Assembly: GCA_021203945.1 (NCBI GenBank)
Contig: JAJQAF010000025.1
Coordinates: 1-5,988 of the forward strand
Direction: 5' to 3'
Length of the DNA: 5,988 nucleotides
Source: Campylobacter sp.
Lineage (GTDB): Bacteria > Campylobacterota > Campylobacteria > Campylobacterales > Campylobacteraceae
Numbering within the stretch: position 1 is the first letter of the stretch; the number at the start of each line of letters is the position of its first letter. Shown piece after piece: positions 144 to 4,752 of the stretch. The position numbers were made by a program, and so were the translations under genes. The notes under the pieces were generated by a model. The model made no database searches and was not told where the DNA came from. It saw only the letters and a list, made by a program, of their open reading frames with translations.

Positions 144-2225
144 ATGAAGAATTTGGATAAGGCGTTACTCGGCTTATTCGTAGGCTTTGGCTTGTCTATT
201 ACCGCAGCCTGTGCTGCTAGCGACGGCGGTATGGGACATTCGATGCAGATGACGAAAGAAGCTAGAGATGTTATCGCAAATCCGAAAGGAACCTTGCAAA
301 GTAGAGGTGTCATATCCTTACAAGACTACATAGTCGAGGAAAAGGAGATGTATGACTGGCTTTTCAAAAACCACCCGATTTTCACTAAATACGGCGGTAA
401 AACGGTCGGAAAACTAAAAGTGGGCGACCGCGGACACGAATGGCTTGCCGAAGGACACGGCTTTGATATGTCTAAGGCTAGTAAGCGCGATAACGGCGAA
501 GGTCTTAGCTCTATGATGTATAGAATTCCCGCCACTTCAAGCTTGCAATTTCCTAACAAATTCGTAGGTCCCGAAAAATGCGGCGAATGTCACCCCGCTC
601 AATACGAAGTTTGGAGCAGAGCACGACACTCTACGACTATACGTTTTCCGGGCGAGCATCCCGAGCTTAACAATAACCTAACAGATCCGGTATTTACGGC
701 GGATACGGCTTCCGTATTGCCTAAAGGCATAACTCCCGACGTAATTTACGGCACAGTCGGTCACTTAAGAACAAAAATGGGTTACATCGACGCATGGCTA
801 CTTCGCGGAACATATCACGTTGAAGGCGGTTTGCTACGCGACGGAACGGGTCAAATAACTGCGGGCGGCAACCAATGGCAAAGAACATGGGCGTTAAATT
901 TAACTCCTGAAGTCGTTAAAAAGATCAAAAAAATAGTTCCCGAGTTCCCTGAAACTCTTGAAGAATACGGCGTAAACGGCGGTTATGTCCGAGGTCTTGC
1001 TTCATATGCGGCTAAGTATAAAACCGAAATGTCTTTTCAGGCAAACAGCTCATACTGCGAGGTCTGTCACCCTGTTAAATTCGACTTCCAAAACAAAAAA
1101 GATTTCTATGCGGCTTTAGGTAATGCTAAAGAGCTTCAAAAGCACACTATCTCAAAAGGCGTATCCTGTGAGGAGTGCCACGGAGCGGGCGGTCACCTTG
1201 ACGGCGCTACTAATTTTAGAACGTCAAACTGCGAACGCTGTCACCAAAGATTTAACTATAGCCCTGATTTAGCGCGCGCTAATCCGCTAAACAACGGCAA
1301 GCTCGATCTGTCTTTAAGCTCTAAATTTAAATCGATGGGACCGGGCTGCGGTTCCGAGGGTTCTCAATCATATTTCACCGCTCACTACGATAAGGGTATG
1401 AGATGCGTTACTTGCCACGATCCGCACGATACTACGGGACCGGTTGTAGGCGATAAAAACGTAAAAGGACTTAACTATAACTCCGAGCAAGGTTATTTAA
1501 GTGCGTTCTATACAAAACCTAAGTTGAAAAAAGATTGCAAGGATTGCCACGAAGCTCAAGCTTATATAATGGCAAGAGCAGATACGCATAAAGACAACAC
1601 TTGTGCGTCTTGCCATATGCCGTTTATGATGAGCTGCGAGAATTTCTATGCTATTCAGTTCCAAGATAACGCCGGATTTGATACTCAAAGAAGATCTCAC
1701 ATCTGGAAAATCGACGTAAGTCCCGATCGCAAAACTCTTGTTGCGGGCGATAACGCAAAAGGTCCGAGAGACGCTAAAGATTGGCACTTCCAAAGAGATG
1801 AGAAAGGTCATAACTTTGTAGATTTGATGTGGTCATGCGCCAGAACTTCTTGGGCGGATAAAGATATGGTAGATAAAAAAGGCTGCCACAGCCCTGTCGT
1901 TTCAGAGCTTAAAGAGACACTTCACTTTAAGAACCAAAAACAAGTTTATGACGAAGTTATGGGATGGCAAACTCCTGTTAAAAAAGACTTTACGGAAGTT
2001 AAAATCGGCATACAAGGAATTTACTCCATTCTTGAAACTAAAAAGTTAGGCTCAAGTGAAAAGACAAGAGTTTATGAGCTAATCGAAAAAGCTCAAGACA
2101 CCGTTGATTTGCTTGAAAAAGACGGCTCATGGGGTATGCACGGATTCAAATACAGCAAACAAAGACTTGACGCCGCTAAAGAATACATCAAAGAAGCCCA
2201 AAAAGTCCTAAACGGAAATTTATAA
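144..2225 (+). CDS. mccA: MccA, periplasmic octaheme cytochrome c sulfite reductase
   Basis: This 693-residue exported multiheme cytochrome should reduce sulfite to sulfide with six electrons at the end of an anaerobic respiratory chain in the periplasm. Residues 1 to about 24 form a Sec signal peptide (charged start, hydrophobic 8-22, cleavage near ACA/A). Seven CX2CH heme sites start at Cys146, 305, 342, 363, 421, 465 and 487. An eighth heme site is CX15CH, from Cys565 to Cys581-His582, the hallmark of MccA. The only other cysteines after the signal are Cys402 and Cys498, 96 residues apart. They fit the two copper ligands of the Wolinella enzyme, recalled as Cys399 and Cys495, a constant offset of three. 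With the same offset Tyr126, Lys211, Tyr288, Arg369 and Lys396 coincide with active-site residues as I recall them. The second site (305-309) would be the catalytic heme. A charged, probably helical C-terminal segment (about 615-690) follows the last heme. The reading frame is intact, and mccB-mccC-mccD-ccsA1 follow. Other octaheme families (hydroxylamine oxidoreductase, tetrathionate reductase, nitrite reductase) lack CX15CH, so identity is firm. Confidence 0.96.
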   Translation: MKNLDKALLGLFVGFGLSITAACAASDGGMGHSMQMTKEARDVIANPKGTLQSRGVISLQDYIVEEKEMYDWLFKNHPIFTKYGGKTVGKLKVGDRGHEWLAEGHGFDMSKASKRDNGEGLSSMMYRIPATSSLQFPNKFVGPEKCGECHPAQYEVWSRARHSTTIRFPGEHPELNNNLTDPVFTADTASVLPKGITPDVIYGTVGHLRTKMGYIDAWLLRGTYHVEGGLLRDGTGQITAGGNQWQRTWALNLTPEVVKKIKKIVPEFPETLEEYGVNGGYVRGLASYAAKYKTEMSFQANSSYCEVCHPVKFDFQNKKDFYAALGNAKELQKHTISKGVSCEECHGAGGHLDGATNFRTSNCERCHQRFNYSPDLARANPLNNGKLDLSLSSKFKSMGPGCGSEGSQSYFTAHYDKGMRCVTCHDPHDTTGPVVGDKNVKGLNYNSEQGYLSAFYTKPKLKKDCKDCHEAQAYIMARADTHKDNTCASCHMPFMMSCENFYAIQFQDNAGFDTQRRSHIWKIDVSPDRKTLVAGDNAKGPRDAKDWHFQRDEKGHNFVDLMWSCARTSWADKDMVDKKGCHSPVVSELKETLHFKNQKQVYDEVMGWQTPVKKDFTEVKIGIQGIYSILETKKLGSSEKTRVYELIEKAQDTVDLLEKDGSWGMHGFKYSKQRLDAAKEYIKEAQKVLNGNL

Positions 2226-2276: not shown

Positions 2277-3059
2277 ATGCAAAAACAACTTCTAAGCACC
2301 TTAATGGCAACCTTTTGTCTTGTAAGCTTTGCAAATACTACCGAGCTTAAAACTAAAGAGCAAAAAGAGTCTTATAGTATCGGAGTATCTACCGGTAATT
2401 ACGTTACTAATCAAATTTTTCAACAAGAGCGGTTAGGAATAAAATCCGATACGGCTTTAGTAATAGAGGGTTTCATAGACGCTCTTAAAAAACAACAAAA
2501 ACTAAAAGACGACGAAGTTATTACGCTTTTAAACGATAGAGCGGAACAGCTAAACAAAATAGTAGAAGCCAAAGAAAAACAAAAGCTTGATGAAAATTTA
2601 AAAAAAGGTTCTGAATTTATGGCAAAAAATGCCAAAAATAAGAAGGTAAAAACCACTAAATCCGGTATTCAATATGAACTCATAAAAGCCGGTAAAGGCG
2701 GCAATAAACCAAAACCTGAAAGCGTAGTAGTTCTAAACTATAAAGCATACCTGATAGACGGATACGTATTTGACGATACTTACGAGAAAAAAACACCGGC
2801 TCATCTTTCTATGGTAAATATCATAGACGGTTTGCATGAAGGCTTGCTTTTGATGGAAGAAGGCTCAAAATATAAATTCGTAATTCCAAGTAAATTGGCT
2901 TACGGGAACTCCGATATGCAAGATATTCCTGGAGGCTCGACGGTTATTTTTGAAGCCGAATTACTAAAGGTATTGAAACCAAACGAGCTTGCCGAGGCGG
3001 CAAAAGCACTTAGTGAAGGTAGCATGAAAAATTTTCACGATACCAATATGACAAAATAA
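2277..3059 (+). CDS. mccB: MccB, exported FKBP-type peptidyl-prolyl cis-trans isomerase
   Basis: This 260-residue protein resembles FkpA/Mip-type periplasmic foldases. Residues 1-19 form a Sec signal peptide, with likely cleavage after SFA. Residues about 25-120 match the helical FKBP N-terminal dimerisation region (SYSIGVSTGNYV near 32-43, then a Lys/Glu-rich helix at about 70-125). Residues about 127-234 form the FKBP catalytic domain. Against FKBP12, Tyr155, Phe165, Asp166, Tyr209 and Phe225 correspond to Tyr26, Phe36, Asp37, Tyr82 and Phe99. The floor tryptophan (Trp59) is replaced by Leu186 in the IIDGLHEG segment, so isomerase activity may be reduced. A polar tail of about 25 residues follows. 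The gene sits 51 nt behind mccA. In Wolinella the same position is held by the prolyl isomerase MccB, thought to help mature MccA. The mature protein has no cysteine, and Cys14 lies within the signal peptide without a convincing lipobox. Confidence 0.92.
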   Translation: MQKQLLSTLMATFCLVSFANTTELKTKEQKESYSIGVSTGNYVTNQIFQQERLGIKSDTALVIEGFIDALKKQQKLKDDEVITLLNDRAEQLNKIVEAKEKQKLDENLKKGSEFMAKNAKNKKVKTTKSGIQYELIKAGKGGNKPKPESVVVLNYKAYLIDGYVFDDTYEKKTPAHLSMVNIIDGLHEGLLLMEEGSKYKFVIPSKLAYGNSDMQDIPGGSTVIFEAELLKVLKPNELAEAAKALSEGSMKNFHDTNMTK

Positions 3060-3092: not shown

Positions 3093-3779
3093 ATGGAAAA
3101 TAAAAATCAAAGAAGAGCTTTTCTAAAATATGTTGCTATCAGCTCGGTCGGTATCGGCTTAGCCGGTTATGCAAAAGCGTTAGAAAAGCCTAAAGAATAT
3201 GATCAAATTTCAGGCAAAAAACCGCATTTCGGTATGATTTTCGATCAAAATAAATGTGTAGGTTGCACTGATTGCGAGATAGCTTGCAAAAAGGTAAATC
3301 TAGTTCCCAAAGGTCAAATGAGACTTTTCGTGCAAGACAAAACCGATCCTTTAAATTTAAAGGAGAGACGCTTCGTAAGAATCTCTTGTCAGCAGTGCGT
3401 TGAGGCGCCTTGCGCTTTGGTATGTCCCACAAAAGCCTGTTATAAAGACGAAAAAACGGGCATCGTTACGATGAATACCAATGACTGCATTGCGTGTAAA
3501 TACTGTATCGTAGCCTGTCCATACGACGTGCGTTTTATAAATCACGATACAAGAGCGGCGGAGAGTTGCAATTTCTGCTTTGATACGAATTTTAAAGAAG
3601 AACGTGAACCCGCTTGCGTCGAAGCGTGCAGATACGAAGCGTTGGTTTTTGGAGATCTAAACGATGAAGAATCTCATATAAGCAGATTACTTCGCGTAAA
3701 AGATAGCCTTAGAATGAAGCCCGAATGCGGCACAAAGCCAAGTTTGCGATATATTCCTGCGGTTAAATTGGGGGTGTGA
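3093..3779 (+). CDS. mccC: MccC, NrfC-like periplasmic protein with four [4Fe-4S] clusters
   Basis: This 228-residue electron-transfer protein should carry electrons from the membrane subunit MccD to the cytochrome MccA. The N-terminus has a twin-arginine type signal: RRAFLK at residues 7-12, a hydrophobic stretch at about 13-27 and a probable AKA cleavage site near 27-29. Four cysteine groups follow the NrfC/PsrB/DmsB pattern: Cys55-58-61-65, Cys99-102-107-111, Cys132-135-138-142 and Cys159-162-175-179. That gives 16 ligands, enough for four cubane clusters. Two further cysteines, Cys116 and Cys212, lie outside this pattern. Tat export fits, because such clusters are inserted in the cytoplasm before translocation. 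The residue before the arginine pair is Gln rather than the usual Ser/Thr. The gene is 33 nt behind mccB and 1 nt before mccD. The same protein type serves nitrite, polysulfide and DMSO reductases, so the assignment to sulfite reduction rests on the operon. Confidence 0.93.
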   Translation: MENKNQRRAFLKYVAISSVGIGLAGYAKALEKPKEYDQISGKKPHFGMIFDQNKCVGCTDCEIACKKVNLVPKGQMRLFVQDKTDPLNLKERRFVRISCQQCVEAPCALVCPTKACYKDEKTGIVTMNTNDCIACKYCIVACPYDVRFINHDTRAAESCNFCFDTNFKEEREPACVEACRYEALVFGDLNDEESHISRLLRVKDSLRMKPECGTKPSLRYIPAVKLGV

Positions 3780-3780
3780 T

Positions 3781-4752
3781 ATGAACGGAGCTATAAATTT
3801 TACTCATACGTTTTCTCATGGAGTCGAATGGGGCTGGCCGATCGCCGTGTATCTTTTGCTTGCCGGAATGAGCGGCGGCGCGCTTGTGATCGCTTTGCTA
3901 ATCAAATATTATAAAAAACAAAAAGATAGCACGCCTTTGTTTAAAGCGGCGTCTTTGCTATCTTTAGTAACGATTTTGCTAGGAATGGTTTGTCTTGTCG
4001 CCGACCTTGAAAGACCGCTTTTGTTTTGGAAAATTCTCATAAATTATAACTGGACTTCGGTTATGTCCGTGGGTGTTGCGGCACTTTGTATATACATACC
4101 TCTTAGTTTTATTATGTGCCTTTACGCCTTTGAAAAAGAGCTTTTTGCCTTTTTTGAAAACAATTTAAAATTCGTAAAACCTATCCTTGCGATCGTGATG
4201 AAAATTTTAAATCCTTTATGTCCTTTCTTAATCGCTCTTTGTCTTATTTTTGCGGTTACGATTTGCGCATATACGGGATTTTTAATCTCGGTTTTAGTAA
4301 GATTTCCGATATTAAATACCGCTATTTTGCCGGCTCTTTTCGTAGCTTCGGGGCTATCTGCGGGTATAGGCGGCTCAAGTCTTACGGCGACGCTATTTTT
4401 TAAAGAAAATCATCATTCAAACGATTTAAAAACGCTTCATACCATAGAATGGCCGATAATGTGGGCTGAAATTTTACTTATAGCCATGCTTTTTGTCTCT
4501 CTTATCATCGGCTCGGACGTGCAAAAAGCTGCAAGCATAGCCTTTCAAAGCGGAATTTACGCTAAATTATTTTGGTTTGGTGTAGTGGGCGTGGGATTTT
4601 GCGTGCCTATCGTATTAAATTTTCTATTGGGCAAAAAGACGGCTTCATCGCTCGTAACTTTTTATTTAAGCGGTTTTGCTAGCATTATAGGCGTTTTAAT
4701 GCTTAGAATGTTTATCCTTTACGCAGGGCAGACATATCATATAAATATTTAA
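3781..4752 (+). CDS. mccD: MccD, NrfD/PsrC-family membrane quinol dehydrogenase subunit
   Basis: This 323-residue integral membrane protein is the likely menaquinol-oxidising anchor that feeds MccC. About eight hydrophobic helices can be read, roughly at 20-41, 55-75, 94-116, 145-168, 179-199, 226-246, 262-283 and 290-314. Family features include YLLLAGMSGGA at about 24-34, the DLERP segment at 75-79 after helix 2, and the WTSVMSVG start of helix 3 at 91-98. There is no signal peptide and no heme or Fe-S cysteine motif, so electrons must leave through MccC. The start codon lies 1 nt after the mccC stop, with GGGGG at 3770-3774 serving as ribosome site inside the end of mccC. This points to translational coupling and a 1:1 MccC-MccD module. 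NrfD-like proteins serve many respiratory enzymes; the sulfite role comes from the linked mccA. Confidence 0.92.
   Translation: MNGAINFTHTFSHGVEWGWPIAVYLLLAGMSGGALVIALLIKYYKKQKDSTPLFKAASLLSLVTILLGMVCLVADLERPLLFWKILINYNWTSVMSVGVAALCIYIPLSFIMCLYAFEKELFAFFENNLKFVKPILAIVMKILNPLCPFLIALCLIFAVTICAYTGFLISVLVRFPILNTAILPALFVASGLSAGIGGSSLTATLFFKENHHSNDLKTLHTIEWPIMWAEILLIAMLFVSLIIGSDVQKAASIAFQSGIYAKLFWFGVVGVGFCVPIVLNFLLGKKTASSLVTFYLSGFASIIGVLMLRMFILYAGQTYHINI

Follow-up and report, generated by a model that had tools for sequence, protein, structure and literature searches.

The window, that is, the whole stretch of 5,988 nucleotides analysed here, carries an mccABCD–ccsA1 operon. Besides seven CX2CH sites, its MccA has a conserved CX15CH site that is predicted to bind heme through Cys565 and Cys581 with His582 as a ligand, and the CcsBA-type lyase encoded at the operon end likely attaches it; we put the probability of this reading at about 0.9. 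A gap-free alignment with Wolinella succinogenes MccA (4rkm), conserved cysteines, the gene order and the clade of the lyase together indicate that, as far as sequence can tell, this is the ordinary MccA–CcsA1 system. The system is already known from Wolinella, and the window adds another Campylobacter-type genome to it.

The window is an entire contig (C67) of a 1.52 Mb assembly of 316 contigs that is 68% complete, and contains five plus-strand genes separated by gaps of 51, 33, 1, and 15 bases (Table 1). The order of FKBP-type, NrfC-like, NrfD-like, and CcsBA genes in the Campylobacterota mcc operon is present, and the order A–B–C–D–lyase was found in Campylobacter and Sulfurospirillum loci as well; the names mccB, mccC, mccD, and ccsA1 follow what we take to be the Wolinella usage. 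A lyase gene four genes downstream of mccA had been proposed in the earlier note, and the fourth gene after mccA indeed encodes a CcsBA of the CX15CH-linked clade. In Campylobacter showae CC57C, mccD (L002:13655-14624) is split over two frames of 142 and 156 aa, with intact mccC and lyase genes on either side.

In the proposed pathway, MccD would take electrons from menaquinol and MccC would hand them on to the periplasmic MccA, whose octaheme-copper centre would reduce sulfite to sulfide. MccB would likely help in folding, CcsA1 would likely attach the heme at the CX15CH site, and a housekeeping CcsBA encoded on another contig (C65) would likely attach the other seven hemes.

Table 1. Genes and predicted heme and copper sites in the window.
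Feature	Position	Strand	Basis
mccA, octaheme MccA-type sulfite reductase, 693 aa	144..2225	+	ORF without internal stop; 4rkm match E=0, residues 1-691; homologue search
CX2CH site 1, CGECH, residues 146-150	579..593	+	both Cys and His in 121/121 rows
CX2CH site 2, CEVCH, residues 305-309	1056..1070	+	motif reading, alignment conservation
CX2CH site 3, CEECH, residues 342-346	1167..1181	+	motif reading, alignment conservation
CX2CH site 4, CERCH, residues 363-367	1230..1244	+	motif reading, alignment conservation
Cys402, predicted copper ligand	1347..1349	+	C in 119/121 rows, gap in 2 (120 of 370 homologues)
CX2CH site 5, CVTCH, residues 421-425	1404..1418	+	motif reading, alignment conservation
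CX2CH site 6, CKDCH, residues 465-469	1536..1550	+	motif reading, alignment conservation
CX2CH site 7, CASCH, residues 487-491	1602..1616	+	motif reading, alignment conservation
Cys498, predicted copper ligand	1635..1637	+	C in 120/121 rows, A in 1 (120 of 370 homologues)
Eighth heme site, CX15CH, C565-X15-C581-H582, CARTSWADKDMVDKKGCH	1836..1889	+	codon 565 starts at 1836; gap-free vs. CARTTWADKDQAEAKGCH of 4rkm
mccB, FKBP-type peptidyl-prolyl isomerase	2277..3059	+	Pfam PF00254, PF01346
mccC, iron-sulfur protein, NrfC-like	3093..3779	+	Pfam PF13247; TIGR03149 match under its cut-off
mccD, NrfD-like membrane protein	3781..4752	+	PF03916
ccsA1 first half, 407 aa, CcsBA heme lyase, ResB part, open at contig end	4768..5988	+	PF05140; other half on G000:C199 2013-3488; clade 100/100

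The encoded MccA aligned with Wolinella MccA 4rkm at 1299 bits in one continuous alignment over residues 1–691 of 693, and 4rkm/4rkn was its sole PDB match at E ≤ 0.001, confirming the earlier assignment of the protein to MccA. The CX15CH site at codons 565–582 and the seven CX2CH sites upstream of it were read as described there. In seven of the eight CH pairs a cysteine stands three residues before the CH cysteine with none other within 20 residues, and for the pair at 581–582, Cys565 is the only cysteine within 20 residues upstream. The alignment with Wolinella MccA that had been suggested as a check was run, and showed the eighth site to be gap-free. Conservation was then read from 121 rows, i.e., the window protein and 120 listed homologues of the 370 found by protein search. 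Loss of Cys565 among homologues had been named as the result that would speak against the site, but Cys565 is a cysteine in 120 of these 121 rows, the exception (P0102) having a deletion there, and Cys581 and His582 are kept in all 121. Among the same rows, the two cysteines are spaced by 15 residues in 116 rows and by 17 in four, with the deletion in one.

Cys402 and Cys498 align with 4rkm chain residues 411 and 507, which correspond to 399 and 495 if the native Met is chain residue 13, and Cys399 and Cys495 are what we take to be the copper ligands of Wolinella MccA. Copper in the MccA active site is described in the accessible part of PMC6703420. Residue 578 (window 1875-1877), just before KGCH, is a Lys that is unique among the 121 rows, the other 120 listed rows having N (64), G (30), A (17), T (8), or R (1); Lys578 is probably neutral.

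The lyase of the operon runs off the contig end. When the full-length C. showae lyase was compared with the genome of the window, query residues 6–412 matched on C67 and residues 411–899 on a second contig, C199; between the C199 half and the C. showae lyase the identity is 65%. The ends of C67 and C199 share only 10 bases, and the two are contigs of a 68% complete assembly, so we infer, rather than read, that the halves form one gene. A fused ResB and CcsA architecture would span the contig break, with the ResB part in the window and the CcsA part, carrying a WWD-type segment, on C199; the C199 half matched the solved CcsBA 7s9y at 415 bits, including the segment WGRYWGWD. Both halves fell, with a support of 100/100, within a 14-row clade of CX15CH-linked lyases in a 35-row CcsBA tree built without Wolinella CcsA1, and this clade stands apart from CcsA2 and NrfI in the CcsBA trees. 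On C199 the lyase is followed by homologues of the Sel1-repeat and NosL genes that stand behind the C. showae lyase (L002), with identities of 70% and 66%, respectively. NosL presumably belongs to a copper-chaperone family, and these two homologues may serve copper loading of MccA.

The same genome encodes a second CcsBA on C65, with 688 residues up to the contig end, which groups with the longer CcsBA type; this type, here called housekeeping or CcsA2, is unlinked to mccA in most of the genomes examined. Over these 688 residues it is 80.5% identical to the single CcsBA of G032, a genome that carries a CX17CH MccA.

To relate MccA type to lyase number, MccA matches were collected from the genomes of the family and were found in 83 of 153. 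Two of the 83 (G126:C22 and G127:C33), from a genus of the C. jejuni group, are mccA remnants with many stops. The other 81 genomes comprise 40 with spacing 15 (the genome of the window and 39 others) and 41 with spacing 17 or 18; direct reading of the motif covered the genome of the window, 36 of the 39 others, and 37 of the 41 with spacing 17 or 18, while the type was assigned by identity as CX15CH in G006, G014, and G016 and as CX17CH in G115, G117, G119, and G139. CcsBA lyases were counted as PF01578 proteins per genome, a count whose control gave a signal in nine of the 14 known genomes. Two PF01578 proteins are present in each of the 39 other CX15CH genomes, and the second CcsBA adjoins mccD in the seven loci of these genomes that were read far enough (L189-L192, L248-L250). 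Among the CX17CH/CX18CH genomes, two or more PF01578 proteins were found in all 17 of genus g4, and two in all four of g5 and in G152. In contrast, no second kind of CcsBA was detected by the PF01578 search in 19 of these 41 genomes. Eighteen of them have one PF01578 protein (nine in g1, seven in g3, and two in g6), are 99–100% complete, and include six g1 genomes, of nine, in one or two contigs; the nineteenth, G033, has two equal-scoring copies, an MccA also doubled on the same contig, and 6% contamination. Both cysteines of the eighth site are kept in 19 of 19. Of the 70 genomes without an MccA match (153 minus 83), 65 have one PF01578 protein, two (G128, G149) have two, and three have none. 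For PF01265, the heme lyase family of System III, no match was obtained in 48 genomes, but the controls were silent too, so the result carries no weight.

These counts bear on the earlier claim that the wide site needs a dedicated lyase, which agrees with 39 of 39 other CX15CH genomes and is at odds with the 19 CX17CH/CX18CH genomes that lack a second CcsBA kind. From the latter it follows that a linked lyase need not be the required one, so that in the window, too, CcsA2 might attach the eighth heme, the linked lyase being a helper or serving another cytochrome; the high identity of the CcsA2 of this genome to the single CcsBA of G032 points the same way. Against this stand the second CcsBA in every other CX15CH genome, its position beside mccD in seven loci, and Wolinella genetics, which tie the CX15CH site to CcsA1 in the accessible parts of PMC6976685 and PMC12285233. 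We therefore consider sufficiency of CcsA2 unlikely and retain attachment by the operon-end CcsBA as the preferred reading for the window.

For part of the family, the rule that an unusual site needs its own lyase probably fails, as the sequences suggest: the 19 genomes that keep both cysteines with no second CcsBA kind put it in doubt. Other readings remain for the CX17CH/CX18CH proteins, namely that some unrelated or novel factor attaches the heme, that the heme is held non-covalently or by a single bond, or that the enzyme is idle. The retention of both cysteines in 19 of 19 speaks against an idle enzyme, and the single PF01578 protein is compatible with an unrelated lyase.

Of the single lyases from the 19 genomes, 18 were placed in trees, and all grouped with the CcsA2 type. 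Fifteen were placed in one tree and the ten of g1 in a second tree, with seven common to both; G033, G037, and G042 were omitted from the 15-genome tree for size, all three being in the tree containing g1, and the lyase of G091 (L246), read in two frames, is in no tree. These lyases interleave with the CcsA2 lyases of CX15CH genomes, and well-supported branches of the 15-genome tree force five to seven label changes. Thus, close relatives seem to have swapped MccA type repeatedly, and no separate clade is formed by the lyases of CX17CH genomes. A column test of 18 housekeeping lyases from CX17CH/CX18CH genomes against 11 CcsA2-type lyases from CX15CH genomes found no column in which the two sets had disjoint letters; as shuffled data yielded no such column either, the test has little power. 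The linked lyases, in turn, form three separate clades, one of CX15CH loci, one of the C. jejuni–Helicobacter–Mucispirillum CX17CH group, and one of three g5 genomes. Inside the CX17CH-linked group of the 35-row tree, on a branch of 1.05, lies the unlinked 928-residue lyase of a Helicobacter avicola bin (L099), which was left out of later CcsBA trees; the near-copies L004, L005, and L017 were left out of the 35-row tree, in which one bin (L048/G152) has two CcsA2-type lyases.

The position of the lyase relative to mccA also varies. Six of the seven g3 genomes (L242, L243, L244, L246, L247, L047) have their single lyase gene in divergent orientation at a distance of 0.7–1.0 kb from mccA, and in G085 it lies on another contig than mccA. 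In the g5 loci L252, L253, and L254, a CX17CH mccA is accompanied by a divergently placed CcsBA of 915–921 aa, whose branch is very long (1.98 changes per column), and no lyase was found within the 16 kb read around mccA of the fourth g5 genome, G142 (L251). Beside the CX17CH mccA of G043 stands a lone ResB-like frame of 447 aa (L187:10607-11950, plus strand), for which no second CcsA part was found in that genome and whose place in the tree is unsure; it is possibly a lyase remnant or a stand-alone CcsB. CcmF-type genes were found within the stretch examined of two Pseudomonadota loci, Shewanella L024 and Duodenibacillus L031.

Taken together, we lean, at hardly better than even odds, towards a reading in which a wide heme site needs no lyase of its own, and one housekeeping CcsBA serves both the CX2CH and the CX17CH or CX18CH sites of MccA in many Campylobacter relatives. 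Special lyases, where present, would stem from separate branches. CX15CH would be served by one CcsBA clade in Campylobacterota and by the CcmF type in Shewanella and Sutterellaceae (a single locus of each examined), and CX17CH by another CcsBA clade in the C. jejuni group, H. avicola, and Mucispirillum and by the long-branched CcsBA encoded beside mccA in three of the four g5 genomes. The relatives without a second CcsBA kind are a natural experiment by which the lyase rule can be tested. Should the housekeeping CcsBA fill the CX17CH/CX18CH site in these 19 genomes, it would have to tolerate wide sites in some apoproteins; in G032, the single CcsBA has to serve the CX17CH site, provided that site is filled. 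The pair of the window-genome CcsA2 and the G032 CcsBA thereby offers a test of what cytochrome c synthases recognize, i.e., spacing, loop sequence, or the folded apoprotein.

Spacing at the eighth site differs among lineages. Among loci L001-L053, spacing 15 was found in C. showae, C. concisus, Sulfurospirillum, Sulfurovum, Shewanella, Ferrimonas, Sutterellaceae, one further Campylobacter bin, and a soil bin, and spacing 17 in eight loci, from C. jejuni, C. taeniopygiae, C. aviculae, C. portucalensis, H. avicola, Mucispirillum (two), and one Campylobacteraceae bin; all 29 loci L062-L090 were also read for the motif. Spacing 18 (CGRTSFSDPDLMAGPNASGCH) occurs in mccA of G146 and G147 (L255, L256), single-contig genomes of another genus with a lone CcsBA elsewhere on the chromosome, and comparison of this MccA with 4rkm by phmmer placed three extra residues in the loop. 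The earlier description of the wide site as a hallmark of MccA thus holds for the site itself and not for the number 15. When the loop columns were excluded from the MccA tree, one branch (100/100) still split 24 CX15CH rows from 18 CX17CH rows, and all 42 rows of its alignment have the eight sites and both candidate copper cysteines.

Such drift of the spacing among 15, 17, and 18, as in a loop without strict geometry, would suit a structural or metal-binding role of Cys565, with heme 8 bound by Cys581 alone. However, Cys565 is near-invariant, like the heme cysteines, in the listed homologues and in the 42 rows, and it aligns with the Wolinella site that is named a CX15CH heme c site, with a lyase of its own, in the accessible parts of PMC6976685, PMC7096707, PMC10663686, and PMC12285233, which makes this alternative very improbable and favours heme binding by both Cys565 and Cys581. 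That the wide spacing is a frameshift, an assembly error, or a mutated CX2CH, as the fragmentary assembly might suggest, was rejected, because the 693-aa frame has no internal stop, the 4rkm alignment is unbroken, and the same spacing recurs in 116 of the 121 listed rows and in 36 of 36 CX15CH-type loci read from the family; the earlier note, too, had seen no sign of a frameshift.

In a literature search that had most subscription papers outside its scope, no report was found of wider heme-site spacing (CX17CH, CX11CH, CX16CH, CX18CH) or of a missing lyase in MccA carriers. In the published work on Wolinella and Shewanella, as far as accessible, unusual heme sites are assigned to dedicated lyases. 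The presence of more than one CcsBA in some Campylobacter strains is stated in the accessible part of PMC4460558, so unequal CcsBA numbers had already been noticed.

Compared with known systems, the window MccA is closest to that of Wolinella (4rkm, 4rkn), with which it shares full-length homology, the seven CX2CH and one CX15CH sites, the matching positions of the candidate copper cysteines, and a CcsBA lyase for the CX15CH site (PMC6976685, PMC12285233, in their accessible parts); it differs in the loop, CARTSWADKDMVDKKGCH vs. CARTTWADKDQAEAKGCH, and is otherwise an orthologue. The CX17CH MccA of the C. jejuni group, H. avicola, and Mucispirillum is the same protein with eight sites and both candidate copper cysteines, but its loop is longer by two residues, its lyase belongs to another CcsBA clade, and its loci have no MccB, MccC, or MccD match. 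Instead, the next gene encodes a protein of about 690 aa with rhodanese, multiheme, and b561-like matches (L043). More widely, a protein of about 660–710 aa is encoded after mccA in the CX17CH/CX18CH loci L043, L047, L179-L188, L242-L247, and L251-L258, where no MccB, MccC, or MccD matches were seen; the copies in L043 and L047 have rhodanese, multiheme c, and b561-like matches, the last being weak in L047, and this protein may feed electrons to MccA by a different route.

NrfI, the lyase for CX2CK, is likewise a CcsBA that the accessible literature ties to an unusual heme site, but unlike the window lyase it forms a separate clade in the trees, where L115 and L116 were taken to be NrfI from their length and place. 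Shewanella SirA, defined by CX12NKGCH and the System I lyase SirEFG, belongs to the same protein family and has the 15-residue spacing, and Shewanella loci have MccB homologues nearby in most cases and MccC and MccD homologues in several. In contrast, its lyase is of the CcmF type (L024, and the accessible literature), and the window has a CcsBA and KKGCH with Lys in place of Asn, so it lies outside the SirA system as defined. In Ferrimonas (L036, L037), two tandem mccA/sirA-type clusters were found, each with A, B, C, and D genes and both with a CX15CH site.
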